From Naegleria lovaniensis (taxonomy: Eukaryota; Heterolobosea; Eutetramitea; Acrasida; Naegleriidae), in NCBI RefSeq assembly GCF_003324165.1, contig NW_025407851.1:482306-525527 (forward strand): 43,222 bases of DNA, written 5' to 3'. This document shows, in pieces, positions 26,377 to 43,222 of this stretch (position 1 is the stretch's first letter; every line of letters begins with the position of its first letter). The notes under the pieces are model-generated. The model was not told where the DNA came from and made no database searches. It saw only the letters and a list, made by a program, of their open reading frames with translations. A program made the position numbers and the translations under genes.

Positions 26377-28044
26377 TTACATAGCTCCAACATTCAAAGC
26401 AAGAGAATTGGGTCTCAATCTTGCTCCAGCAATTCCACCTGAAACTGTGTAATATTCAGCAACTCTTTCCAAATTCTCCTTCTTGAAATCTGGATTGGCT
26501 TGTTCAATTTGTGAATAATCTGGTTTGAATGAGTTTCCTGCACCAATTAAAACTGAACCAGCATTGGGTTTAAATGTCATAGGGTCCAAAACAGTCGAAG
26601 GTCCAGTCCACAAGTTACCACCATGTTCACTTGAAGTCTCGGTAACAGCTACTCCCAATTCTCTTCTCTTATGTTGGAAACGAGAATCAATATAGTTATT
26701 ACCTTTCATGGTGACTTTACCGTGACTTGTCAACACTCTCAACTCAACACTACCTTGATGACTAGGTTGATTGGCGAATACATTGTCCCAACAAGCAATA
26801 GTAAATTCAGGAGAACTAGGACTAGCTTCATTTCCAAGTTGGAAAATATCTGTGGAATATCCATTCTTTGCTCTAAACATGTATGTGTTTCCATAAAAGA
26901 ATAAGGTTCCAGCTCGAGATCGTTCCAAAGTGTTATCAAAGCCCCAGTGAATGGCTCTTCCTGAATAACCTGTTGGAGAGTTCTCATCATTCAAAATCAC
27001 ATTTCCATAAACCCATGCATAATTGTAGAGAGGATCCTGTTGTAAATTCTTATAATATTCTTCCTCTGTTTCGACTAAATCCAATGCCCGAGCACTGGCC
27101 TTAATGAAATTGTATCGAATGACAGATCCAGAGCTTCGATCTTTGAGAGAACTTCCACCTTGCGCTTGACCAATATAACATCCTTCAACTAAAACTCTCT
27201 TGGCTTGTGTGTATAAATTATGTTCGTGATCATCATCTGGATAGCCATTCATATCGAGCTTGGATCCTCTCACATACAAGTAGGAGGAATAGTCATTTTC
27301 TGATTGACCTCTGGTGTTGGTAAAGAGACCATTACCATTTTGAGTAATGAAACAATTATCAATCAACAAATGCTTGATACGGACAGCATAAATGGCTCCT
27401 GTAAAGTAATCATAAGGGTGAGAGGCACCATCATATCCAATATATGATTTGCCTTTTCTGCAATCTCTCAATTCCAAATTTCTAAAAGCAAAATATTGAG
27501 GAGTATGTTCTGCTGGATCAGATGAAGATTTCCAAAATATGAAAATTCCAGAACCTGGCAAACCACCACCGCTCCATGTTCCCCACAACGCAGCTTTTGC
27601 ATCATCAGCAGGAAGAGCACCATCTCCAGAAATGACAGGTCTTCGACAACTTGAATCAGTCACTCCATTGATGGTGATTGGATGTGTGGAATTTCCAACA
27701 CTTCTCAAACCAACATAGGTTTTGTAAGGTGTGGAACGATAGAAAATATTGACAACATCACCTGCTTGCAAACTCAACCATGGAACTGTGTTCAATTCAG
27801 TGTAAGTTTGTCCTGGTCCAACATTGAAGGTTTTTCTTCTTCCCACAAGAGGAGTGGTTGAACATCCATTCAATTTGAAAAGAGATGGATTGAAGGCAGG
27901 TGGCCAAACAGATCCATCATCCATGCTTGGTGCATAATTTTGACACTTGGCAGTTTGTATCATCATGGCTAAGACCGTTACACAGAGTAAACACACAAAG
28001 AAAAATGAACGATCCCGCGGTTGGGAAGAGCAGCAAGCTTTCAT
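26377..28044 (-). CDS. Secreted parallel beta-helix protein, intronless copy
   Basis: This 555-residue protein has no intron. A signal peptide (FFFVCLLCVTVLAMMIQTAKC) precedes a mature start at about QNYAPSMDDG. Repeated short beta-strand-like segments (ISGDGALPADD, FAFRNLELRD, LLIDNCFITQNGNGLF, RVLVEGCYIGQAQG, GSVIRYNFI, AWVYGNVIL) and Asn-rich ladders fit a right-handed parallel beta-helix, as in pectate lyases and other polysaccharide-active enzymes. I cannot assign an enzyme class or identify catalytic residues. At both ends it is nearly identical to the gene at 31286-33105, which lies in the opposite orientation. The secreted location suggests a role outside the cell or in food vacuoles. 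Confidence 0.85.
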   Translation of the reverse strand: MKACCSSQPRDRSFFFVCLLCVTVLAMMIQTAKCQNYAPSMDDGSVWPPAFNPSLFKLNGCSTTPLVGRRKTFNVGPGQTYTELNTVPWLSLQAGDVVNIFYRSTPYKTYVGLRSVGNSTHPITINGVTDSSCRRPVISGDGALPADDAKAALWGTWSGGGLPGSGIFIFWKSSSDPAEHTPQYFAFRNLELRDCRKGKSYIGYDGASHPYDYFTGAIYAVRIKHLLIDNCFITQNGNGLFTNTRGQSENDYSSYLYVRGSKLDMNGYPDDDHEHNLYTQAKRVLVEGCYIGQAQGGSSLKDRSSGSVIRYNFIKASARALDLVETEEEYYKNLQQDPLYNYAWVYGNVILNDENSPTGYSGRAIHWGFDNTLERSRAGTLFFYGNTYMFRAKNGYSTDIFQLGNEASPSSPEFTIACWDNVFANQPSHQGSVELRVLTSHGKVTMKGNNYIDSRFQHKRRELGVAVTETSSEHGGNLWTGPSTVLDPMTFKPNAGSVLIGAGNSFKPDYSQIEQANPDFKKENLERVAEYYTVSGGIAGARLRPNSLALNVGAM

Positions 28045-28452
28045 GTTTTTGTTTTTTTGATAATGATGAAATGGATCCGAAGAACCGTAGTGGTGATTTT
28101 AAATGGAGTCATCATGTGGTATATGAGTTCACAGAAATAATACGAGATCTGTTCAATGCCAATGACAAGATCTTGGATCTGTAGGTCTCATACCTGTTTC
28201 GGCCGATGATTGTCCGAGCTTTTCGCTTTTCATCAAGTTGGCAGATCCAAGTCTATCACCGTTGTGGATCTCTTGATCTCGTGTTTTTGATGTGAACCTC
28301 TTTGAAAATATTCCCTCTCATCATGATGATTTTTCATCTTTTAAACCGAAATGCGTGTGAGAGAGATCTCGTGTCGTCATTTTTTGAAATCACGATTTTG
28401 AATGATTTCATCTTTAAAAAAACACAAGCAAACGTACCCTGCCGTTATCCTA
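28045..28452. other. Divergent intergenic region between beta-helix and NHL genes
   Basis: This region serves as upstream sequence for both the intronless beta-helix gene (minus) and the NHL gene (plus). It includes the TTCATCATTATCAAAAAAAC stretch just before the beta-helix start (minus strand), also present before the second beta-helix gene. No coding region is supported. Confidence 0.45.
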
Positions 28453-30822
28453 ATGAAAGTAACATCCATTGCTGGTCAATGTGCACTTTTGTTGTGCATG
28501 GCTTTTATGGTAGCCGCATTGTGCATGTCGACAAATGTGTTGTTGGCCCAACAAATTTACTTGTCTTGTTTGCCAGGAATTCCTGCGAACAACTCTGACT
28601 CCTCTTACTTGAACTTTTTGTCGAATAGGGTTGGTGGTTCGATCAATTCATGGGGAGATGCATACTCTGCCGTTTCCGCCAGTTTAGATCAACCAATTGC
28701 TGTATCGATTTCAAAGAGTAGTGGAGAAATCTTCATCACCGATTACAACCATGGAAAATTGAGAAAAGTGAATCCATCCACCAAGATTATTACTACCTTG
28801 TCAAGCTCTATCAAAGGTCTTTACACTGTTCATGTTGCTGATAATGGGGATGTGTATGCATCGAGTCCAAGCCAAATCTTTAAAATTCATCCAACTAGTG
28901 GTGCTTTGACAGTGATTGCAGGATCAGCCAGCAACAAGGGAGATTCTCCAGATGGAACTATTGCTACAAGCGCTTTGATTAATTTTCCAAAATCCATCCA
29001 TGTCACAAGTGCTGGTGTCTATTTCACAGATTCTGGCAATCACAAAGTCAAGTTGATTGGTACCGATGGTAAGATCAAGACTGTCGCCGGTAATGGTCAG
29101 AAAGGTTTTTCTGGTGATGGTTCTCAAGCTACAAGTGCCTCATTGAACAATCCATATGCAGTGGTCGTCACTTCAACCAATGTCATGTACATTTCAGATT
29201 CAGGCAATGGTCGTGTAAGAAAGATTGATACTAATGGTGTCATTTCGACCTACGTGGCTCCTACCACTGGAGCATCCAACAACATTAAAGTTGGAAATCC
29301 AACAGGTCTTGCATTGAAACCATCCACTGGAGAACTCTTTATCGCAGACAATGCATTTTCGAGAATTTTCAAAGTTGACAATGCTGGTGTGACCACTGTT
29401 TATGCAGGTACTGATTACGGAGATACTGGTGATGGTACTAGCACTGCCAATGCTCAGTTGAATAGTCCTTTTGGTCTTGCATTCTCATCATCAGGAGATT
29501 TATTCTTTTGTGATACGTTCAACAACCGAGTAGCCAAGTTTTCTGCTGCAGATAATTTACTGTACAATGTTGCAGGAAATCAACAGGTTTCATTCTTTGG
29601 AAATGGAGTGAATGCTTTAAATGCCACGTTCAGTTATGACTCCTCCATTTTTGAATATAATAAGGAAATTTATGTGGCTGACACCGCGAACAACTTGCTG
29701 AGAAAAATCTCAACTAGTGGAATGGTGACAACCATTGCTGGAAATCCAATTGGCGGTTTTGGTGATGGAGGACAAGCTATCAATGCCTTATTGAACGGAC
29801 CTAAATCATTATTTGTTAGATCCAATGGGGAAGTATATTTCGTAGAGGTTGCCAATCACAAGATTAGAAAAATTTCAACCAGTGGAGTTATTTCGACTGT
29901 AGCTGGAAATGGTTTGGAAGGGTTCAGTGGAGATGGCTCAGCAGCTACAAGCGCAACTCTTCGCTTCCCTCAAGGTGTATTCTTGAATAGTGCTGGTGAA
30001 GTGTTCATTGCAGACACTGGTAATGCAAGGATTAGAAAGATTTCTACAAGTGGAGTTATTACAACCATTGCAGGAACAGGTGAGAGAGGTTTTAGTGGAG
30101 ACGGTTCTGCAGCAACAAGCGCTCAACTTAACTCTGTCGTATCATTATTCGTGACATCGAATGGCGAAGTGTATTTCCCAGACGGAAATAGAATTAGAAA
30201 AATTTCATCGAGTGGAATCATTTCAACTCTGGCAGGACAGGAAGATGCTGGATTTTCTGGAGATAATGGCCTTGCAACGGCTGCCTACCTCAATAACCCT
30301 CAGAGTGTGGTAGTGACAGGTCAAGGCATCTTTATTGCTGATACAGAAAATAATCGAATTCGTAAAATTGGTTTGGATGGAATCATTCGAAGTGTGGCAG
30401 GAACTGGTACTAGAGATAACAACAAGGCAGACAATATTCTTGCAACATCTACTCCAGTATCGCCTCGTTCATTAGCTTTGACTTCATCTGGATCCATTCT
30501 AGTGGCAGACATTTTTGGCAATATCAAAACATTGGCAAATTGCTCTTGTCCAACAGGATATTATTCTCAATGTGCCTCAGCTCCTCCTGTTCAACCCTCA
30601 CCCAAACCATCTCCTTTACCAAGTATTTCGACCAAGCCAGGTATCTCCACAAAGCCTGTCATTTCTCAAAAACCTGGTGACTCTGTGAAACCAATGAACT
30701 CAACACAACGAGGAGTTGCCTCAAGCGCAACAACTTTCAATGTTGGATCATTCATTGTGAACACTATGAGCTTGTTGGTTTTATTTTGGTATATGGTTGT
30801 AGTAACGATGTTGCAAGCATGA
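28453..30822 (+). CDS. Secreted NHL-repeat beta-propeller protein
   Basis: ATG 28453 (MKVTSIAGQCALLLCMAFMV) gives a clear signal peptide; the upstream ATG 28402 is in frame but gives a worse start. The body of roughly 700 residues is built of about ten NHL-type repeats of some 55 residues. Each ends with a consensus like ADTGNARIRKISTSGVITTI followed by AGTG and a GFSGDGSAATSA linker. Such repeats form beta-propellers used for protein or sugar binding. After the repeats come a Cys-rich SCPTGYYSQC, a Pro/Lys/Ser-rich stalk and a C-terminal hydrophobic stretch (IVNTMSLLVLFWYMVVV), consistent with a GPI- or membrane-anchored surface protein. No introns are seen. The gene lies between the two inverted beta-helix paralogues. 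Confidence 0.9.
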   Translation: MKVTSIAGQCALLLCMAFMVAALCMSTNVLLAQQIYLSCLPGIPANNSDSSYLNFLSNRVGGSINSWGDAYSAVSASLDQPIAVSISKSSGEIFITDYNHGKLRKVNPSTKIITTLSSSIKGLYTVHVADNGDVYASSPSQIFKIHPTSGALTVIAGSASNKGDSPDGTIATSALINFPKSIHVTSAGVYFTDSGNHKVKLIGTDGKIKTVAGNGQKGFSGDGSQATSASLNNPYAVVVTSTNVMYISDSGNGRVRKIDTNGVISTYVAPTTGASNNIKVGNPTGLALKPSTGELFIADNAFSRIFKVDNAGVTTVYAGTDYGDTGDGTSTANAQLNSPFGLAFSSSGDLFFCDTFNNRVAKFSAADNLLYNVAGNQQVSFFGNGVNALNATFSYDSSIFEYNKEIYVADTANNLLRKISTSGMVTTIAGNPIGGFGDGGQAINALLNGPKSLFVRSNGEVYFVEVANHKIRKISTSGVISTVAGNGLEGFSGDGSAATSATLRFPQGVFLNSAGEVFIADTGNARIRKISTSGVITTIAGTGERGFSGDGSAATSAQLNSVVSLFVTSNGEVYFPDGNRIRKISSSGIISTLAGQEDAGFSGDNGLATAAYLNNPQSVVVTGQGIFIADTENNRIRKIGLDGIIRSVAGTGTRDNNKADNILATSTPVSPRSLALTSSGSILVADIFGNIKTLANCSCPTGYYSQCASAPPVQPSPKPSPLPSISTKPGISTKPVISQKPGDSVKPMNSTQRGVASSATTFNVGSFIVNTMSLLVLFWYMVVVTMLQA

Positions 30823-31285
30823 GTGACATGAAATGATTAAAAAGAAATAATAAATCACACTGTACTCAAGTCAGATCCAAGTTTATTTTTTGGTTGTGCA
30901 ACTGTAGAGTCTCATGTTGAGAACTCTTTTCACATTTTGTTGCCTTAGTAAAGGAGTAATCAAGCGTGTGTAGATGCGAATCAAGGGACTCTAAAGACAA
31001 AACATGAGTTTAAGGTTGTTAAAGCTAACATCTTGAACTGTTTCGTTGAAGTATTCGTAGTTCGTTCAATTTTCAAATCAAGTGTGGGGTCGTTAGCAAT
31101 CATCAAAAAAATATCAAAAAATGAGCTGGGATCACGGTATTCCCAATCTCACGCGCTGCTCACCCACTTAAAAATCATGATGGTTCTAAAGAGTGAGATC
31201 TCCGATGTATTAAATAGATCATCATTGGATTTAACAAAAATTCATCATTATCAAAAAAACAAATCAAAATTTATATTCGTTTCCA
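30823..31285. other. Intergenic region between NHL and second beta-helix gene
   Basis: This stretch holds AATAAA-type signals (near 30849) for the NHL gene and the promoter of the beta-helix gene. TTCATCATTATCAAAAAAAC before 31286 repeats the sequence found upstream of the inverted paralogue. I see no gene. Confidence 0.4.
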
Positions 31286-33105
31286 ATGATTCTAAACGTA
31301 AAATACGTGTGGTGTTTGTTGTCCATTGCCACCACTTTGTTCCTTTGCTTTCCTGTAGTCCAATGTCAAAATTATGCACCAAGCATGGATGATGGATCTG
31401 TTTGGCCACCTGCCTTCAACCCATCCCTTTTCAAATTGAATGGATGTTCAACCACTCCTCTTGTGGGAAGAAGAAAAACCTTCAATGTTGGACCAGGACA
31501 AACTTACACTGAATTGAACACAGTTCCATGGTTGAGTTTGCAAGCAGGTGATGTTGTCAATATTTTCTATCGTTCCACACCTTACAAAACCTATGTTGGT
31601 TTGAGAAGTGTTGGAAATTCCACACATCCAATCACCATCAATGGAGTGACTGATTCAAGTTGTCGAAGACCTGTCATTTCTGGAGATGGTGCTCTTCCTG
31701 CTGATGATGCAAAAGCCGCTCGATTTGGAGACTATCCTGGAGGTACCCTTGCTGGATCAGGAATTTTCATGTTCTACAGAAAATCTTCAGATGATTATGA
31801 ACATTCTGCAGCTTTCTTCGCCTTTAAAAATTTAGAATTGAGAGATGCTGTGTATGGAAAGAGCTATGTGACCTACGACGGCACAACTAGAACCTATGAT
31901 TATTTCACTGCTGCAATCTATGCTGTCCGTATCAAGTATTTGCTCGTTGATAACTGTTACATCCATAGCAACGGAATTGGATTATTTACCAACACCAGAG
32001 GTCAGTCAGAGAATGACTATTCTGCTTACACCTTTGTGAGAGGATCCAAATTGGATAGAAATGGGTATTTCAACAGCGAGACTGAACATAACCTTTATAC
32101 ACAAGGAAGGAGGGTATTAGTGGAAGGATGTTATATTGGTCAAGCTCGTGATGGTAGTTCACTTAAAGATAGAAGGTTAGTTCATCATCTATATTTTTTG
32201 ATATGGTAACTATTAATTATTTACTACCATGCCTGTACGGCCCAACAATTTGATAATCAATAGCTCTGGAACAGTTATTAGATACAATTTCGTTCAGGCA
32301 AGTGCTCGTGCCTTGGACTTGGTTGACTCAGAAGAGGAAACCTATACACCTGTAAAATCGGATCCGTTGTACGATTATGCTTGGGTGTATGGCAATGTTA
32401 TTTTAAACGATGAAAATTCAGCATATGGTTATGCAGGTCGACCAATCCACTGGGGGTTCGATAAAATTGTGAGCAATTCACGAAAGTATGTATAGTTATT
32501 ATATGCTAGCATTTGAAATCACAATGACTAATCATGATGTTTATTATTTTTACGTGGTAAACAGAGGAAGTTTGTTCTTCTATGGAAATTCGTTTTTATT
32601 CCGGACTAAAGATGGATATTATACTACAGTTTTCCAAATGGGTCAAGACGGTGAGATTCCAAGTACTTCCAACTTTACAATTTTATGCTGGGATAACGTA
32701 TTCACCAATCAACCAAGTTTCCAAAAACAAACCTATTTAAGGCTTTTAGCAGACTCCGGACGGTTAACCTTGCATGGTATCAATTATATTCATTCTGTGT
32801 TCGACCATTCCAGAAGAGAGAATGCTGCTGGTATTGTGAGCACGTCAAGCGAACAAGGAGCTGGAACGTTATGGACTGGACCTTCGACTGTTTTGGATGC
32901 CATGACATTTAAACCCAATGCTGGATCAGTTTTAATTGGTGCAGGAAACTCATTCAAACCAGATTATTCACAAATTGAACAAGCCAATCCAGATTTCAAG
33001 AAGGAGAATTTGGAAAGAGTTGCTGAATATTACACAGTTTCAGGTGGAATTGCTGGAGCAAGATTGAGACCCAATTCTCTTGCTTTGAATGTTGGAGCTA
33101 AATAA
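31286..33105 (+). CDS. Secreted parallel beta-helix protein, intron-bearing copy
   Basis: Exons are 31286-32175, 32264-32485 and 32565-33105; the introns are 88 bases (GTTAGT...ATAG) and 79 bases (GTATGT...ACAG). The joins reproduce the continuous protein of the inverted paralogue (LKDR-SSGTVIRYNF and SNSRK-GSLFFYG). The signal peptide is YVWCLLSIATTLFLCFPVVQ and differs from the other copy. The first 353 bases after it (31364-31716) and the last 229 (32872-33100) are nearly identical to the intronless copy, including synonymous positions, while the middle (31717-32871) has diverged. It is a beta-helix protein likely active on polysaccharide, by family resemblance only. This is the last gene I can support before the telomere, so it is subtelomeric. 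Confidence 0.85.
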
Positions 33106-33494
33106 TTTTGCTTTTGAATTGGTTTGAACGATTGTATTTCAATAGGCTTGTCCTGTGAACGTTTAAACTTGCATTGTTTATTTTGTTCATGTTTAAACAA
33201 GTTTGAACAAGTTTTTAATTGAGTTTATAAGTTTGTTTGTTCATGTTTGAACTGTTTAAACATTTGTGAACAGAAAACACGAGAATCATAAATAAATTTA
33301 AAAAAATGAAAAACACACAACAACATTGCCACTAACACTTCTGGTGGCGTAGTAATTATGACACGTTGCTCAATGCGCAAAGAAGCATCGGCATGAGATC
33401 TCTATTTTGCCATCTTCTCCCAATAATACATTTCTTGAAACAATAATGATATTCTTTCCCTTTAGCCATAATTATTCCGATTCGTGATAAATGC

Positions 33495-33557
33495 CATGTT
33501 TCTACATTGTAAACAACAACAAGAGTTTGGAATTAATTGGAGGAAAACTAATGGGTT
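33495..33557. repeat. 63-base exact direct repeat, copy A
   Basis: It starts CATGTTTCTACATTGTAAAC and ends AAACTAATGGGTT. It is identical over 63 bases to 34161-34223 in the same orientation, 666 bases away. Confidence 0.9.
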
Positions 33558-33568
33558 TGTAACTCGCC

Positions 33569-33600
33569 AAACATCCATCCTTTGAAAAGGATTGGTGTTT
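33569..33600. repeat. Near-perfect hairpin next to the direct repeat
   Basis: AAACATCCATCCTTT and AAAGGATTGGTGTTT are inverted copies with two mismatches and a two-base gap, giving a 15-base stem directly after the 63-base repeat. Confidence 0.75.
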
Positions 33601-34160
33601 GAGGGATTTTCTGCATAATTTGTCATTAGACTTTATTGAGCAGAGTCCCGAGCATTTGAAAAGGGGTGTAGAAGGTAAAAAACTCCAAAAACCGCTCAGC
33701 GGAAAAAAAGGAGAAAACCAGAGAAACGCAAGGAAGTAAGAAGGAAGTGATGAAGAAGAGATGGATTGTGATCAACTCACATTATCATAAATAAACCAAG
33801 TATCAAAGGTGGTGACAATGTCACATTAATGTAAAATAAATAAATAGTAAAATAAGGTTAAAAAGTAAATGTTCAATTACTTGTCGAAAAGATTCGAACA
33901 AGGCAGTCCCGCACTGTCATAATGTCCTTCCTTACCACAAGAACATTAAGGATCAGCGAAAAAGGAACTTGAAAAGCTTAAGAAAGCATGATAAGGGTGG
34001 GAGTGCGATGGGTGGGAAGTCAGTAAGCAAAGCAAAGGGAGACGAAGTACTAGTATGCAGAAAATTTTTTGAGCATGAAAATTATTTCGAATACTCAACC
34101 CAAACTCTTTTATTGTTTACAATCGAAACATTCCTGCCCTTCACTACGTTCAGAACAAAT

Positions 34161-34223
34161 CATGTTTCTACATTGTAAACAACAACAAGAGTTTGGAATT
34201 AATTGGAGGAAAACTAATGGGTT
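34161..34223. repeat. 63-base exact direct repeat, copy B
   Basis: Identical to 33495-33557. The flanks differ from copy A and no hairpin follows it, so only the core was copied. Confidence 0.9.
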
Positions 34224-34546
34224 AGTTCCGAGTATTGAAAAAAAATATGGAGGTGAAATCGCTCTCTGCAATACAACATCGTCTAGCGCAACTAGGCACA
34301 TATCTGACACCCATCGACCCATAATTTTGTTGACATTAATATTGGTATTCCTTAGAGGAAAATTATTGGTGGATGCACCAAACGCAAGTTATGACCGGAG
34401 ATCTTCAATGTGTTGTCAATTTGTCTATTGTGTTGCAAATTAATTCGGATATTTGAGTTGACGTAAGATATTGACTGTTAGGTGGCTAAGATCCGAATAG
34501 GACAAAAGGTGTTGAAACCTTGACCAGGATTAATCATGGCAAGGTT

Positions 34547-34600
34547 GATCATTAAAGAAAGACCTTGTCGAGTGATCATTAAAGAAAAACCTTGTCGTGT
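34547..34600. repeat. Two tandem 27-base units
   Basis: Two adjacent units each start GATCATTAAAGAAA and continue CCTTGTCG. A third partial copy (GATCACTGAA) follows and a partial one precedes (TTGATCATT). The units differ at two positions. Confidence 0.75.
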
Positions 34601-37600
34601 GATCACTGAAATTAGAATCATTCCAACCTGATTTGGTTTGGGTTTCACCTTTGACCACCTCAATTCACAACGACGAACCAATAAACTTAAATTAATAACT
34701 CAAAAAGCCGAAGCGTGGGAATGTAAAAACGGTCTTCGGGAGATTGTTGTGGATTACGTGTGGTGATCAAATTAAAGATGCGAGAGGAGCTAATGAGGTC
34801 GCTACTTGCTGTATACAAAAGGTCAGATCTTTGTAGAAATTTTAAACTATTCCTCCAAATCAACTTGTTAATTTAGCCACCCTCTTTCCATCTCAGCGAA
34901 AAGAACTGAATGGTTCTGAACAATACGGTTTCTACTAGTCTAGCAAGGTATTTGGATTGAGTCGACCACCATTTGAAACTGAATACCACGACCAATCACG
35001 AGTAGAGATCATAAGATATCGAAATCCCTCTTGCGGGCTGAAGGACGTGGAGAAACAATTACACTTAAAACTGTACAAAGGTGAAGCAGATTGCTTACTT
35101 TGAAGACAATCATCTCCAAATAATCGGAACTAGTTGAATAATTGTGTCTAAGGCTCGCATATAAATAAACTGCTTGGAACACGAATACCAATTACTCTGA
35201 GCCGTATTGAGAACCAGTGAGAGGATGGCTAATCGGGAGGTAGTAATATCCCTCAAGCTTACGACAAAATAATGTCAATTATTGGTTGGGATCAGCTTCA
35301 ATATAAAGACACAATTGCTGATTGAGTTGTTTCTCACATCGTCCGAAACTGCAATGATTGTTCTAATGAACTGTGGAGTGAATTGTGACAGCTGAACCTA
35401 TAGTCGCAAATTTGTTTACCATATGATAATACTAGCAGGACGAGACTGACAGGAAATACTGAGGGACATCCATCTTCAAGGCTAATCAACCAGTCTTCGA
35501 CACTTCGTAGGGGTGGAATATATATAACCTTAAAATTCGATCAATTGTCTCCTGAGTAGGATTGCTCAAATCGCCTACTGTTTGAGTAATTTCGAAGGAG
35601 AATCGAAGTTAAACCTATTCAACACCTTCGCTATTTCCTCCAAATCCAAAATGTCCATCATAATTCATTTTCGTACCAAATCAACATTTCAGATTTTGTA
35701 AACTTGTCGGATCTTTAGCATTCTTTACATCTGTTTGACAGATCAAAGAGTTGAAATTGTAATTAGATGATCAAATATTCCATCATCTGTCCTTAAAGAA
35801 CTGAGTGCTGTGCTGTAATGCCTCGTCTGAACTCGATGTTGGGGTTGTAAAGGTATATCTGTGTTGCGTTGTTGACTGGGAAGAGAAAATCGCAGCTTCT
35901 AACTAATATGAGACCTGTTTCACAGTTATGATTGAATTTGCTGACTAGGACGTTAGGGCTAACATGCATTCCATAAACATTGACGAGAAGTATTTGGGTT
36001 GACGATGATTGGGGCTGGTGTGTCTAAACCGAGAGAGCTTCCAATATTCTCTTGTTCAATTTTCTGGAGAGTTTTGAGATCCCTATTGGCATATCTGTAG
36101 ATCATCATTGATGTGTTTCAATCTTACATATTCATCATTGACAAGTTGTACATCTTAACGGTGTAGGAGTGGTGTAATACCAGAGTTGACCACGTCAAGA
36201 AATCCAGTCTCTATTAAACTTGGCTTCGAAATGGTAACTTAAATTTTCTCGATTTTCTGTTTGACTCTCGATTTAACCGGTTGGGATTCACATTGTTGTA
36301 AAACGAATACGAGAGATGTATTATAGAGTTCTACGGTTTGAGCGGAATGAGGCTGCATTTTTCTAATACAAATGGTCCACCTAGGAAAACATTAAGGAAA
36401 TCCATAATTATAGTCACAATGTGATCCCAAATAGAGAGAAAGCTAACGTCAACACATCAACCATGCAAGTGTAAATGTAAACCAACATTCCAAATTAAAT
36501 TTGTCCTAGAATATACTTGGGAGAGAGACTGGCCTTGGAACGAGACATAATATTAGGAGGAAGCGAAATTCGAACTTCTTTCTTTCTTAAAAAGTTTCAA
36601 GTAGTGAGCAATGTGTCTAATATGAGAGAAAAACTTATATTCCACCATTCGAAAATCCAGGATGAATCGAAATGATGGTCTCGATAAACCCGCATTTGTA
36701 ACGACCATATAGAATGTTCCAGTTGTTACTTTCTACAACTGACTTCTAAAAAATTCATAGAAATCCAGTATTTGACTTTCCAACTGAAAAATGCATCAAT
36801 GGTTTTCATCACCTTTGTTTTGAGTTAGTTGTGTGAAAAATAATGAGTGATGAATAGGGACACTACTAAGCTGTGCTACGATTTTTTGATATTTGAATTG
36901 GTCGAATCGTGAGTCTTAGTGATAACAATTACAAGATTGGATTGTTGGCTATCATCTGGGTGGCTATCAGTAGAGTATGACAAGAAGTCCTCGTTTGACA
37001 TTTAAGGCATCAGTGGCAATTGCAAGAGGAAAAATTATTGTTCAAGGTTGTGTCAAGGACTCATAGTACTATGATGACGCCAAGCTTCTCATTATCAAAA
37101 GCATTAATGATCAATTAGTATTCCCAATTAAGTTCGTCAAATGATAATTGTTGTCACAACGAAACAATTAAACTATAATGAAATCTTGTCTCATCCATAC
37201 AGTCCTTTTTAAACTAGATGCCAAAGAATATTGAAACACTTCAAAATCACTACAACAACTTGTGTCGTGAATAAGGATTACATGTTGACCAATGTTGTGG
37301 ATTACTTGTACACTCTTGTTGCAACTTGATATTGTCCATTGCTCTTCTTATCGTTTTGATATTGTTTCACTCTGAGGAAAAAACTGGAATGGTGTTGACA
37401 TATCGTTAGAAATCCAATCTAATGTAGTTCTTTCCACAAAATTTACGTCTCAAGATCCAGCAAACTAGTTCAATCGTTCAACACTTTCTTCATAATTTCT
37501 GAATAGGATAACGATATTTCTGTGAAGAGATTAGATAATATCATGGCTTGGTCAGTTCACGTTGAGAATGCTATAACGATCGTTCAACCATTCCGAATTA

Positions 37601-38170
37601 ATATTAAAATAAATAAATAAACAGGCAAGTGCTGAGAACGAATGAAGTTGATACTCCAATGGAAGAGTTATTCATCTCGTTGCTAAGATTACGTTAATGC
37701 TGTAGGTACTATAGCTAATGGAGTTCGATGCTAAAGTGTGGAAAACAAACTGAAAGTAATCAAATTCGAATGATGCGAGAACAGTTGTCGTTGGCTCGGG
37801 AGAAAAAAGAGTTCCGTGGTACGTGGAATAATTGATGAATGGAGTTGTCAGACAACAAGAACATGGGTTTGGATTCCTCTCAGTAGGATTTTTAAAAAGA
37901 TTCAATATAACAATATATAAATTGTTTTTAATATCAATTAGTCCCACGCAGAGAGGAAGGAGGTATTAAGCGAAAGATTTCTTGTTGTTATAGTGGATAT
38001 CGAGATAACCCCTATTTTTGTACTAAAAAATCAGGTCCTGTGGTGGTTGACCATCCTCAAAAATTTTCGTTTAATGATCAAAACTTGAATATTTCCATTA
38101 ATTAAGATATAAGGAAGTAAGGCGCTGCTGTTTCGTTCGAGCTGAATGTGAAAATAAGCAAATATTTTGT

Positions 38171-38250
38171 GCGTCCAAGTTGGTGATATGTAACTCTTGA
38201 AGTTGGTCATGATTCAAATATGGACGAGCAAAAGTCGGTATTCCCTCGAA
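38171..38250. repeat. Diverged direct repeat, copy A (about 80 bases)
   Basis: It begins GCGTCCAAGT, contains GGTGATATGTAACTCTTG, then TGGACGAGCAAAA and ATTCCCTC. It matches 38916-39000. CGTCCA and TGGACG within each copy are inverted with respect to each other, about 45 bases apart. Confidence 0.7.
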
Positions 38251-38915
38251 ATTGGATACCGTTAACGTTGATTGAAGAGTCGTTCAGTGATATGTTGGCC
38301 TTGAACAGCTTCCATGATTTATCTCCAAAGTAATTTTTGCTGTGAACCACTCTCAAATCAATCATAATTCAATGATGCTGTTTTCATCCAGGAAGGAACA
38401 TTGAATTATGGTTATTGAGTCCTATCCCGAAACATGGTTATGGAATCTTTATGCGAATGTGTCTTCCTGACGACTGAATCATTGAAATTGAGTTTTTATT
38501 GGTAGTTGTGAGTGGTGAGTTGCTATTGTTCTACATTATCATCGTAAAATGTATACCAGATGAAATGAACATTATTGAATTCTTTTAAGATGATAGAGGG
38601 AGGAGTGTTCTTGTTTAGTTTCATTTAATGAAAAGACTTGTATTGATCATGATGAGATTAGATCTAAACAATGCCTTGAATTCGACAACGCTTCATCAAG
38701 GGTGGTGATTTATTCACTAAATGTCATGAGTACAAACCAGGAATTGAACAGAATCACCTCTGGTTCATGCCTGATTGAAATTTGAACAGTTCCTTTTTCA
38801 TGTATTGATTATTGAGTGACTCCGATTGTTTGGCAGTTGTTGTTATTGTTGAACATTGAGTGCCCTCATCTTAATAGTGGTATGAATAGCCGGTGGACAT
38901 GTCCTGTAATTTTGC

Positions 38916-39000
38916 GCGTCCAAGTAGGTGATGTTAACTCTTGGAGTTTGTTATGATTTTTAAATGGACGAGCAAAAATTCGTTATTACATTCCCTCCAA
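38916..39000. repeat. Diverged direct repeat, copy B (about 85 bases)
   Basis: The same order of motifs as 38171-38250: GCGTCCAAGT, GGTGATGTTAACTCTTG, TGGACGAGCAAAA and ATTCCCTCC. The copies share blocks but differ by small indels. Confidence 0.7.
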
Positions 39001-40077
39001 AACGATTACGGATGAACTATTCACAAACAACAGCAAGTATGGTTCAGTGTAAAACTGTTCAGCAAGTAAGTGATGGAATCATGGTCGATGCAATTTGACA
39101 ATTTAAACTTGTATTCGACCTGGTCTGCAACAATTTTGGATCTTCCATCGAATGAATTCAATGTTTAATGATACATTCATCAGTATGTCATGAGATTTTA
39201 ACTCTGATAGATGTACTTTATCACTGAGTGTTTATTCTTGTGTCATCTGTATCGAGTTGGTGAAGCGCTCTCATCTGTTGTATGATTCATTGCAAGAAGT
39301 GACCTTGTTGTATTTTGCATTTGTTTGCTGTGATTTATTGTTGAAAACAAATGTTCAATATGATGATTTTCATGTTTTGTGCATGTACTCTATGGATTAT
39401 GTTCAAGGTGTGTTCATGTTTGTGGTTGTCATCTCATTTATTGAATTTCGTTCAGCAAGTGATCGTGTCGATAGTTGATGGATTGTATTATTTTGAATAA
39501 ATTATGATGAACTGTATTGATAGTGATCATCTTTATGTGTGTTTCAAGTGTGTTGTTTGATTCATTTGACTAATCTCTACAGACTGTACTGACCATAACA
39601 TTTGGCGGATGAAACATAAGATGAAAATGTGTGTGGTAGATTTCATGTTTTCCAAATTCTGATATTGGTTGGAGTACATGTTGAACATGATGATGTGGGT
39701 TTGGCTCCACCTACTCTTTTTTTTGAGCCATTTTAACGACTTTACTATCAAAAAAAAATTTTGATTTCAATAAGTCCTGTCCACGGTCCGAAGTTAACTG
39801 GTGAGGACGAGATATACTCAAATCCTAGGCTAATTTTCATTTGCTTTCTAATGGTGTTGAAATTTCTAAGAGATGTGAAGTGGTTGTTGAGTTATTTCAC
39901 TCTGAATTTTGAAGGTAAATTGGCCCAAAAAAAAATTTAATGTTGTAAATGAAGAGAGGATGATTATTTATTATCGGACTGGTATTTCAAACTGTAAAAC
40001 CAGAGAGAAGCAATGAAATTGGAACACAAGGTTTTTGAGGACTTGGAAATTTTTTTTGACAATATTTTGGACTCAAC

Positions 40078-40210
40078 AATTCCAAGTTCAAAATGATAGA
40101 GAGGTCCAGCGAAAATATGAAATATAGCTCTTTTTCAATAAATACTGATCAGGTGTATCTCAAATTGATATATGAAGTGTTACTCACCATGTAGAACAGT
40201 AATATTATGG
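40078..40210. repeat. Diverged direct repeat, copy A (about 130 bases)
   Basis: Contains AAGTTCAAAATGATAGA, TCAATAAATACTGAT, a TCTCAAATTGATAT block and GTTACTCACC. The same order is found at 40453-40590. Confidence 0.65.
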
Positions 40211-40452
40211 TTGTGTGCTGATGACTGACTCCTGACGCGGAAATGTGGTACTCCTAACCTCAGAGTGTGTCCGTGAGGGTGATGTTGCTTGGCATGATAT
40301 TCTCCTGATAATTAAACGTAGAGCGTTGTGTGTGTGAGAGATTTGTAGAGTATTTGTATTGTTTGTGACATGAACAGTGATGTACCTGTTGAATGAATCA
40401 GCTCCAGTGTTGGAGAGTCGGTTTTTCGCTGGAGGTGGAATATTTTTATAAA

Positions 40453-40590
40453 ATTTCAAAGTTCAAAATGATAGAAAAGTCAAGCCAAAACTTGAAGTGA
40501 GGCTCAATTTCGATAAATACTGATTGATATCATCTCTAATTTGAATATGTTGTGTAACTCACTGGGTGAAATATTGTTATTAGATTTAAA
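40453..40590. repeat. Diverged direct repeat, copy B (about 138 bases)
   Basis: Contains AAAGTTCAAAATGATAGA, TCGATAAATACTGAT, TCTAATTTGAATATGT and GTAACTCACT in the same order as copy A. Substitutions are frequent, so it is old. Confidence 0.65.
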
Positions 40591-42777
40591 TTGAAGAAAC
40601 AGAAACTGACTTGTGAGAAAGTGCACGTTTCTCTCCAGAGGCTTTTTTCATGATGATCTTTGATTTCTAGGTTACATACTATATATCAACAATTAGGTAT
40701 TGATGTTGTCTAGATGTACGTTTTGAAAATTTTAATATTTGTGAAGTAGTTGTTGAGATATTAAGGATCAAAATGAGCTTTCCCGGTCAGATCACGTCAA
40801 ATGTCCCTCTCCACCAAAATATATAAAATAACGATTCCATTTCTTGGACAGATATTAGGTTTTAATCCATAGAATATTGAGAGAGTTGAATTTTTGGTAG
40901 TTATTAAGTAGTTATTGAATTACACTTTAATACTTCTCACCAGTCCGAAAGTTGTTATAACAAAGTAATCATTACGATTTAAGGATTACTTTTTTCACAT
41001 ATTGATAGAGTCTGACCTTTAGAACGTAATCCACATCTCTGTTGAGGAAACTATGAAGTAAGTTTTTATCATGGTCGAGTTAAATCAGGACAGACGATTT
41101 TGAGGGCTAAAATTTCTTCAATTCAAAAAAATAAAAAAATGCTCAAAACGAACCAGAGAAAATAATCCGATACGACTCTTCTGTTTCTTTGGAGATTGAC
41201 TGATTCAGTTTTTCGATAAACCAGTGATTTCTATGTTGTATAATATATTGTGTAGAGTATTTCTATGACAATTGATGATGGATATGATCATTATTGGTGG
41301 AGTATCATGATGAATGTTGTGGTGGTGTGACACCATGTCCTTCCGAGAGTGAGTGTGTCATGAACACTACATATCAACATGTTCGTCATGATGAGTATGA
41401 TACATCCATGTTGGTTGTACTCACTGAATCATCAATTTATGGAAGTGGTGTCTCACTCTTTCAGTTCATTTTTCTTTGTCACATGATATTACGATACTGA
41501 ATAATTTCAAGAATATCACAGTGACTTTATTTGATTATACACACTAGGATATTGTTATTTTGAAATTTGTGGAATTTATCTATATGAGTTGATTTTGTTA
41601 TGAGACACCTGAGAAGTGTTGAAAATGATTATTAATTAATTTTTGAAGAGTTGTCAGGAGAGTGATGTAGATAGTTTTTTATGGTAGATGAGATGGTGTA
41701 CAACACATTGATATTAATTGTTGTATTTGTTCATGTCTAGAATGTATTGTTGTTGAGCACCTGAGAAGATTTCGTAATGAAGAGCATTATAGTGTGAGAC
41801 ATGGTTTTCTTTATTGAATAGTTGCAATCATCCATGTGTTGATCTTGTTTTATTGTGTTATTATTGATGTTGTGGAGCGTTGTGATGTATTGTGTGATGG
41901 AAGGATTCACTCATGTCACATCTGACACTTTTTCGTGGAGAGCCTGTGTTGATTTATGAAGGCTGCATTGAAAATAAAGAATTAATTCATTGATTTTCAT
42001 GATCAGTGCATGTGAAATGTATGGTGTATGTGGTTGATATGCGTCAATGTTCATGTCATCTTGATTTTGAATTTTGTCTGGTTTTACTGACCCTATACTT
42101 CCGCATTTAGAATTTATCCAAAAAAATACTGTTGTGATTGATCAGTGTTGTTTGGTGTTGTAATGACGGAATTATGATTGAAATCATTTGTAGTGATCGT
42201 AGATGTGTCCTTCAACCGTATTGGATACGTGTATCATGTTCGTTGCTATCACTCAACCGCTGAGCGTTCAAAGTTGTTCATGAAGAGTGATGAGATGAAA
42301 CATGGTTGTTTGAATGTTCATTCAAGTTGATAAACATGCTTGTCATGATGATGTGATCACTTGATAGTGAGTGTGTTGATCCATCAATTGTATGTGTTGA
42401 GCAATGTTTCAATCATTACAATAAAGTTTGATGTTGTGGTGGATGACATCTTTGTTTTGTATATTAAATATTCTTTCATGATCATGAAGTACTCATGTCA
42501 TAGTGTGAGTCCTATCATTTTGAAGTGTTGCTCAATGTTGTGTGCTTGGTGTGATATGAAACTTTAAAAAAATTGTAACATTTTCTTTATATGTTGTGAT
42601 GATGTTCACTACTCTTTGTGAAATTGATATATCATGTTTGCCATGTATATGACAACATATCTATGAAGTGTTATTGAATGTATATTGATACTTGCTGAGA
42701 TAATTGATAAATGTTAACTTTGGAGTGTTTGAAAAATTATGGTCTTAGTCTCTTTACATGGGTTTGATAAAAATTCT

Positions 42778-42816
42778 ACTCTTTGGGTTTACTCTTTGGG
42801 TTTACTCTTTGGGTTT
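42778..42816 (+). repeat. Three 13-base degenerate telomere-proximal units
   Basis: ACTCTTTGGGTTT occurs three times in perfect tandem at 42778, 42791 and 42804, each carrying a TTTGGGTTT core preceded by ACTC. It is the junction between subtelomere and the regular array. Confidence 0.9.
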
Positions 42817-43222
42817 GGGTTTGGTTTGGGTTTGGGTTTGGGTTTGGGTTTGGGTTTGGGTTTGGGTTTGGGTTTGGGTTTGGGTTTGGGTTTGGGTTTG
42901 GGTTTGGGTTTGGGTTTGGGTTTGGGTTTGGGTTTGGTTTGGGTTTGGGTTTGGGTTTGGGTTTGGGTTTGGGTTTGGGTTTGGGTTTGGGTTTGGGTTT
43001 GGGTTTGGGTTTGGGTTTGGGTTTGGGTTTGGGTTTGGGTTTGGGTTTGGGTTTGGGTTTGGGTTTGGGTTTGGGTTTGGGTTTGGGTTTGGGTTTGGGT
43101 TTGGGTTTGGGTTTGGGTTTGGGTTTGGGTTTGGGTTTGGGTTTGGGTTTGGGTTTGGGTTTGGGTTTGGGTTTGGGTTTGGGTTTGGGTTTGGGTTTGG
43201 GTTTGGGTTTGGGTTTGGGTTT
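42811..43222 (+). repeat. Telomere array, TTTGGG repeat
   Basis: About 69 tandem units of the six-base TTTGGG run to the end of the window, with only two TTTGG variants (two G at 42823-42824 and 42936-42937). The G-rich strand reads 5' to 3' towards the end of the sequence, as a chromosome end should. It is not the common TTAGGG or TTTAGGG. The overlap with the 13-base units is because their last TTTGGGTTT merges into the array. Confidence 0.95.

Follow-up and report, generated by a model that had tools for sequence, protein, structure and literature searches.

The telomere of Tetrahymena is made of TTGGGG, and Paramecium mixes TTGGGG with TTTGGG. The Y' elements of yeast, which carry ORFs, have short inner telomeric tracts. 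Tandem Y' elements are found in yeast type I survivors, according to the accessible part of PMC4700185. The available passages of PMC5537684 describe further elements that occupy chromosome ends. In Drosophila, HeT-A, TART and TAHRE form one-direction, head-to-tail arrays with the 3' end towards the centromere and a G-poor strand; in bdelloid rotifers, the endonuclease-deficient Penelope-like Athena elements have a 3' telomeric stretch, 5' truncations and end attachment; and in Giardia, GilM and GilT occupy the space between subtelomere and telomere in arrays of a single direction, with some copies 5' truncated. A further source on such elements is PMC10088271, and TTTGGGTTTG is the repeat proposed for a wasp in the available passages of PMC12134996. 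Within the literature covered, namely titles, starts of abstracts and text passages, with supplements and most subscription papers outside this scope, we found no mention of a telomere repeat for Naegleria, nor anything similar to the blocks described below. In the accessible text of the Naegleria and amoeba genome papers covered, words beginning 'telomer-' were either absent from the main text or confined to the reference list.

We analysed a stretch of 43,222 nucleotides, here called the window, from Naegleria lovaniensis (assembly GCF_003324165.1; single strain, 30.69 Mb, 97 contigs, numbered here with the prefix C). The window corresponds to C30:482306-525527, and as C30 is 525,527 bp long, the TTTGGG array with which it closes is at the physical right end of the contig. 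This array had been recognized in the initial annotation as starting at 42811. It is real and starts at 42808, is 415 bases long with TTT as its last letters, and, as had also been stated, is near-pure with few short variants and has its G-rich strand outward. The features of the window that precede it are listed with it in Table 1. The blocks are entered on the minus strand; if they are read as RNA, transcription would proceed inward from the chromosome end, and the 3' end of F1 would lie at 39697.

Table 1. Features of the terminal part of the window (a slash marks a join)
Feature	Position	Strand	Remarks
Older gene-free subtelomere	33106-37863		No ORF of at least 200 aa
Block F3	37864-39696	-	Starts GGGTTTGG/ATTCCTCTCAGTAGG; ended at 39696 by F1 attachment
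Block F1, 3080 bp	39697-42776	-	Starts GGGTTTGG/CTCCACC
F1 attachment handle GGGTTTGG	39697-39704	+	Joined to truncated F3 at GATGATG/T
13-bp degenerate telomere satellite TTTGGGTTTACTC	42777-42816	+	Distal end of last block
Telomere array	42808-43222	+	67 TTTGGG and 2 TTTGG; reaches the final base of C30

The N. lovaniensis ends are like those of Tetrahymena and Paramecium in having a terminal 6-nt repeat with the G-strand outward and a telomerase reverse transcriptase (TERT), but the arrays are near-homogeneous TTTGGG and belong to a member of Heterolobosea. Counted over 16 ends from the first (TTTGGG)4, 1067 of 1137 units were TTTGGG, 47 were TTTGG and 11 were TTGGG. A homogeneous TTTGGG repeat in Heterolobosea would broaden the range of telomerase products beyond ciliates, and would provide a fixed target for heterolobosean telomerase RNA.

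The blocks share with HeT-A, TART and TAHRE their one-direction arrays and a G-poor centromere-ward strand (12.4-14.0% G in Naegleria). However, Naegleria has telomerase, its blocks lack a long ORF, and they attach at a telomere motif rather than at poly(A). With Athena they have in common a short telomeric stretch, truncations and attachment at ends, but they are non-coding and no reverse transcriptase was found in them. One-direction arrays between subtelomere and telomere, with some copies truncated, are likewise a feature of GilM and GilT, which, unlike the Naegleria blocks, are non-LTR retrotransposons. The start-bearing copies display the geometry of telomere-attached retroelements, with a constant proximal end, variable distal truncation and one orientation. 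An element-coded reverse transcriptase was not among the 41 RVT_1 matches in the genome at an E value of 0.001, none of which overlaps any block match, though an autonomous partner may exist elsewhere. As with Y', separate subtelomeric blocks whose two ends are constant recur across chromosome ends with short telomeric tracts between them, but the Naegleria blocks are attached to many flanks that are unrelated to one another and are frequently truncated, and it is Y' that has ORFs.

The region leading to the array had been described as gene-poor and repeat-rich. Stop-to-stop ORFs of at least 200 aa are absent past 33105, and the region is indeed rich in repeats, though dispersed subtelomeric blocks outweigh local tandem repeats. 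Past 33105 there are 14 ORFs of at least 70 aa, and the eight that were scanned had no Pfam match at 0.001 (best E value 0.045); for the window blocks, five of the seven such ORFs in or across them were scanned and gave no Pfam match. The longest ORFs are 114 aa in F2 (a block family found at other ends), 85 aa in F1 and 94 aa in F3, against a mean of 89 aa in shuffled sequence. No Rfam match was returned up to an E value of 1 for the window subtelomere and six other subtelomeric loci, and z-scores for a hairpin beside the handle were not significant (-1.5 and -0.1 for 49 and 104 nt of F1, -1.6 for the L038 region). On the plus strand, the two blocks have GC skews of 0.19 and 0.24, compared with 0.08 for 33106-37863 and 0.03 for 1-33105, and this strand composition agrees with outward addition at chromosome ends. 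A 66-nt repeat is present in the older subtelomere at 33495 and 34161, and visual inspection shows its sequence in junction pieces from C21, C23, C74 and C97 as well. The 65 bases preceding F3 (37800-37864) match ten places, several of them deep inside contigs, and seem to be a dispersed repeat that was cut by F3.

When F1, which begins with GGGTTTGGCTCCACC at 39697, was used to search the genome, 25 copies with the start were found, including that in the window. Six of these reach the query end, 17 stop at 17 BLAST end points and two are cut by contig starts. The start is missing in 18 of the 45 F1 matches, which begin instead in a core shared with F2 (eight, from 41195 or slightly before), at an inner GGTTTTTG (four), at the start of another block, F5 (three), at query position 616 (two) or at 314 (one). 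F3 begins with GGGTTTGGATTCCTC at 37864; the start is present in 17 of 34 matches, window included, and the ends are scattered. Ten of the 17 start-less F3 matches cover just the 65 bases before F3, and one partial match, in C91, is inverted. The copies of F3 in C15 and C28 run beyond the point at which F1 is attached in the window, without F1. The third family, F2 (GGGTTTGGATAGGTGACC), has its start in 34 of 40 matches, and a match of 62 bp lies in the interior of C30. All start-bearing copies of F1, F2 and F3 are near contig ends and directed toward the nearer end, being on the minus strand at five left ends (C8, C12, C15, C27 and C56) and on the plus strand elsewhere.

F1 (from 41195) and F2 have a distal core of approximately 1.59 kb in common, with 92% identity. 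In a BLAST comparison of 15 other array-bearing ends with the window, the terminal core was present in 13, at 81-93% identity; C4 had no match and C50 merely a 100-bp stretch. At nine ends, the distance from the F2 start to the array is 2768-2976 bp and the flank is different at each. After hand subtraction of the 13-mers, the distance at these nine ends is 2767-2807 bp, and the copy in C10, the single one read whole, is 2769 bp. The 13-bp satellite has two copies in C30, three in C25, five in C40 (TTTATTC form), seven in C3 and C19, nine in C16 and C44 and 16 in C24, and none at the ends of C4, C7, C9, C10, C23 and C50. At the ends of C15 and C28 its place is taken by 8 and 11 copies, respectively, of a 9-bp satellite, TTTATTGGG. 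F1 has an internal 75-nt direct repeat (40075-40149 and 40450-40524, 79% identical) and includes an F5 start at 40619. Given these two features, F1 may have arisen through the fusion of older blocks.

Proximal junctions were tallied for 24 of 25 F1, 34 of 34 F2 and 14 of 17 F3 copies, giving 72. Outside the tally are the F3 copies in C97, C22 and C27, the F1 copy at C11:719716, which carries the motif, and F2 matches at C23:662507 and C44:309396, which have no clean motif. The telomere tract ends in TTTGG at 67 of the 72 junctions (64 scripted, and three mis-parsed rows corrected by eye). Tracts are 7-20 nt, mostly 8-13 nt, and many are exactly GGGTTTGG. The 12-nt flanks preceding the tract are distinct in 70 of the 72 cases, and flanks include other blocks cut part-way and unassigned sequence. 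The five junctions with no TTTGG are all of F3: those in C44, C28 and C91 lack a tract, and those in C78 (one of two) and C11 are telomere-like with other endings. Flanks are shared by C44 and C28 and by the F2 copies in C21 and C3, and therefore some copies spread through ordinary duplication. The 72 junctions predict that the telomere naturally terminates at its 3' end in ...TTTGG.

Distal ends were read for 17 copies, comprising 15 start-bearing F1 copies and two partial ones. Twelve pass directly into a telomere-motif start, which is that of F1, F2, F3, F4 (CGGGCGGC) or F5 (AAGTGCACG), or the GGGTTGGGTTTGGGTTTGGGTTTG tract in C21. Three (C78, C21 and C74) join other sequence without a motif, and two (C23 and C44) switch to F2 at GGTTTTTG, an inner motif of F1 that resembles telomere sequence. 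Longer pieces added distal ends in C25, which leads to GGGTTTGG followed by TTAAGGCGG, and in C50, which leads to telomere; an additional block start, AAAGAGGCATTCC, is found in C19. Seven of the eight start types follow TTTGG, and the eighth (C21) follows TTTG. In C26, C16 and C11, a block that is complete distally is followed by 10-20 nt of telomere sequence and then by the next block. The joins at GGTTTTTG in C23 and C44, the four F1-like starts at the same motif and the F5 start in F1 suggest that short motifs resembling telomere sequence have served as sites of exchange. The end of C50, in which other sequence leads to a 100-bp F1 stub and then to telomere, looks like a healed end. In C4, a short interstitial TTTAGGTTGGGTTTGGGTTTGG tract approximately 125 bp inside the array is followed by approximately 115 bp of other sequence and then by telomere, possibly reflecting two successive healing events.

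The blocks are thus seen to have a constant proximal start, differing flanks, varied distal cuts, outward orientation and nested order. We are highly confident that telomere, telomerase and serial terminal addition of non-coding blocks occur together at these ends; the time direction and copying mechanism of block addition are what we infer from there. A broken or eroded end would first acquire 8-13 nt of telomere, approximately one template copy. From this telomeric handle, the addition of a non-coding block, at most approximately 3 kb long, would follow. The block would either be full length and lead into telomere repeats, or be cut short and become the site of the next addition. The added sequence may derive from RNAs with the 3' end CCAAACCC, reverse transcribed from the telomeric 3' overhang as primer, with the copying enzyme, TERT or another reverse transcriptase of the genome, supplied in trans. 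RNAs with this 3' end would account for the invariant start, the diversity of truncation points and the very short handle. The truncations skew short (KS p=0.03 for 17 F1 copies and 0.07 for 11 F3 copies, that in C26 being cut just by the contig end), which weakly favours RNA copying, while the lack of a block-coded reverse transcriptase counts against it. HeT-A offers a precedent here, being an element that lacks a reverse transcriptase of its own. Judged from sequence, RNA copying is close to an even call, and we placed it below that because of the exchange found at the inner telomere-like motif of F1.

In the most serious alternative, break-induced replication of the Y' kind, a short telomeric tract at a broken end would invade an interstitial GGGTTTGG of a different subtelomere and copy everything distal to it, including the telomere. 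The presence of start-bearing copies only at contig ends, and the way in which F1 and F2 run at full length from motif to telomere with a common distal core, are as expected from such copying, which needs no reverse transcriptase in the blocks and to which the exchange at GGTTTTTG in F1 (two truncations and four starts) and the F5 start within F1 also lend support. However, the junction tracts are 7-20 nt against arrays of 337-608 bp, and a stretch of 8 nt would offer an invading strand little homology. Furthermore, the 17 BLAST truncation points of F1 differ, though those at 388 and 392 share the inner motif, and the lean towards short truncations is again at odds with it. Break-induced replication is a real contender that falls somewhat short of an even chance, and we slightly favour RNA copying.

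If the blocks are copied from RNA, then Naegleria would be telomerase-positive and also owe part of the construction of its chromosome ends to non-coding elements attached there. This would bear on the long-standing question of the relationship between telomerase and retroelements. Telomerase and the non-coding RNAs might even share one end-healing process, in which a broken end receives a template copy, GGGTTTGG, and reverse transcription then switches to, or continues into, a long RNA ending in CCAAACCC, so that RNA-copied blocks would rebuild the ends with no block-coded enzyme. We offer this as a tentative and rather doubtful proposal. In its boldest form, TERT itself would copy the block RNAs.

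TERT was found in a 1250-aa open frame in C15 that includes a Telomerase_RBD match (E=2.8e-36; C15:499881-500309). The first 812 aa of this frame matched RVT_1 in Pfam (2.3e-07), and 16 of their 17 PDB matches were telomerase reverse transcriptases (best 1.7e-29). The frame also shows motifs A (DIKGAYD), B' (QGSIVS) and C (LIDD) in their proper order; motif C keeps its two aspartates, and long low-complexity stretches separate it from motif B'. The genome hence combines an outward G-rich terminal repeat with a TERT that has the RNA-binding domain and motifs A, B' and C, as expected of a telomerase-type system. At a distance of 2-3 kb from the TERT frame there is a further match to reverse transcriptase, interrupted by four stops (C15:496957-497301, minus strand).

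This telomerase would copy a template read as 5'-CCAAACCC-3'. As many tracts are exactly GGGTTTGG, one pass over an 8-nt template, made up of a 6-nt repeat and 2 nt for realignment, fits, and if the constant junction phase marks the point at which telomerase stops, CCAAACCC would be the 5' part of the template. This 8-nt core is too common in the genome to locate the telomerase RNA. The initial annotation had predicted an RNA with an AAACCC-type template; in one rotation, CAAACCCAAA preceded by a base other than C (DCAAACCCAAA), there were 142 genome matches versus 110 for the reversed control. Sequence alone singles out no candidate among them, and a telomerase RNA was not found in the assembly by this pattern. 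Nuclear RNase P had no match in the genome. The four U6 genes form two duplicate pairs (C20, C8 twice and C71), and their upstream regions, used as a guide to Pol III promoters, have one 8-mer common to three of the four genes and no word of 9 nt or more common to three.

It is very improbable that the telomeres are kept mainly via recombination or the blocks, with the TTTGGG array a passive leftover. Although the stacking of blocks at chromosome ends could be read in that way, the TERT frame is open with its motifs intact, the arrays are near-homogeneous, and those of C4 and C50, on non-core DNA and on the 100-bp F1 stub, respectively, resemble de novo healing.

Terminal TTTGGG at other contig ends, by which the assignment of the window to a chromosome end could be checked, is present, C30 included, on at least 19 of the 97 contigs (C3, 4, 7, 9, 10, 15, 16, 19, 23, 24, 25, 28, 30, 40, 44, 50, 74, 78 and 97). 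With the two patterns used, all arrays are near the right end with the G-strand outward. The number is a lower bound, as the patterns mark array starts or inner variants and could miss arrays of other make; the arrays of C74, C78 and C97 were placed through pattern alone. Genome-wide, (TTTGGG)4 has 1118 matches on the plus strand and 0 on the minus strand, and the degenerate (TTWGGG)4 returned the same 1118, so there is no four-unit TTAGGG or mixed TTAGGG/TTTGGG array, TTTAGGG being outside this search. Of 16 array contigs read to the final base, 15 terminate within the array, which in these is 337-608 bp measured from the first (TTTGGG)4, and the exception, C24, continues for 9 nt in subtelomeric 13-mers. 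With the same termini on other contigs and TERT encoded in the genome, the view of the window as a chromosome end with near-homogeneous TTTGGG holds, and on sequence grounds we conclude that its array is a functional telomere, presumably built by a TTTGGG-adding telomerase.

No array was seen in 17 left contig starts sampled (one reads N), in line with the reverse count of 0. The left ends of C8, C12, C15, C27 and C56 have subtelomeric blocks on the minus strand, and for this reason they look like chromosome ends whose tips the assembly lost. The assembler FALCON can leave out the prefix of the first read, and we tentatively put the absence of left-end arrays down to this. According to the accessible text of PMC6125883, the published N. 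lovaniensis assembly was built by FALCON from PacBio data. An interstitial position of the TTTGGG array, or its origin as an artefact of assembly, as its restriction to right contig ends might suggest, is scarcely credible given that the final bases are array in 15 of the 16 contigs read to the end, that the G-strand is outward without exception and that the minus-strand blocks at five left ends fit ends cut before the array. In viral contigs, (TTTGGG)6 occurs in 6 stretches and the F1 start motif in 0.

Eight of the reverse transcriptase hits, in C17, C22, C28 (three), C32, C40 and C46, have the identical score of 52.3 bits and open frames of 676 aa, suggesting that the element was active not long ago. 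In the part of the window that precedes the older subtelomere, two genes at 26377-28098 (minus strand) and 31235-33105 (plus strand), neither with a Pfam match at 0.001, appear by eye to encode related secreted-looking proteins. The second is split over two open frames, and a gene for an NHL-repeat protein (28402-30822) lies between the two.
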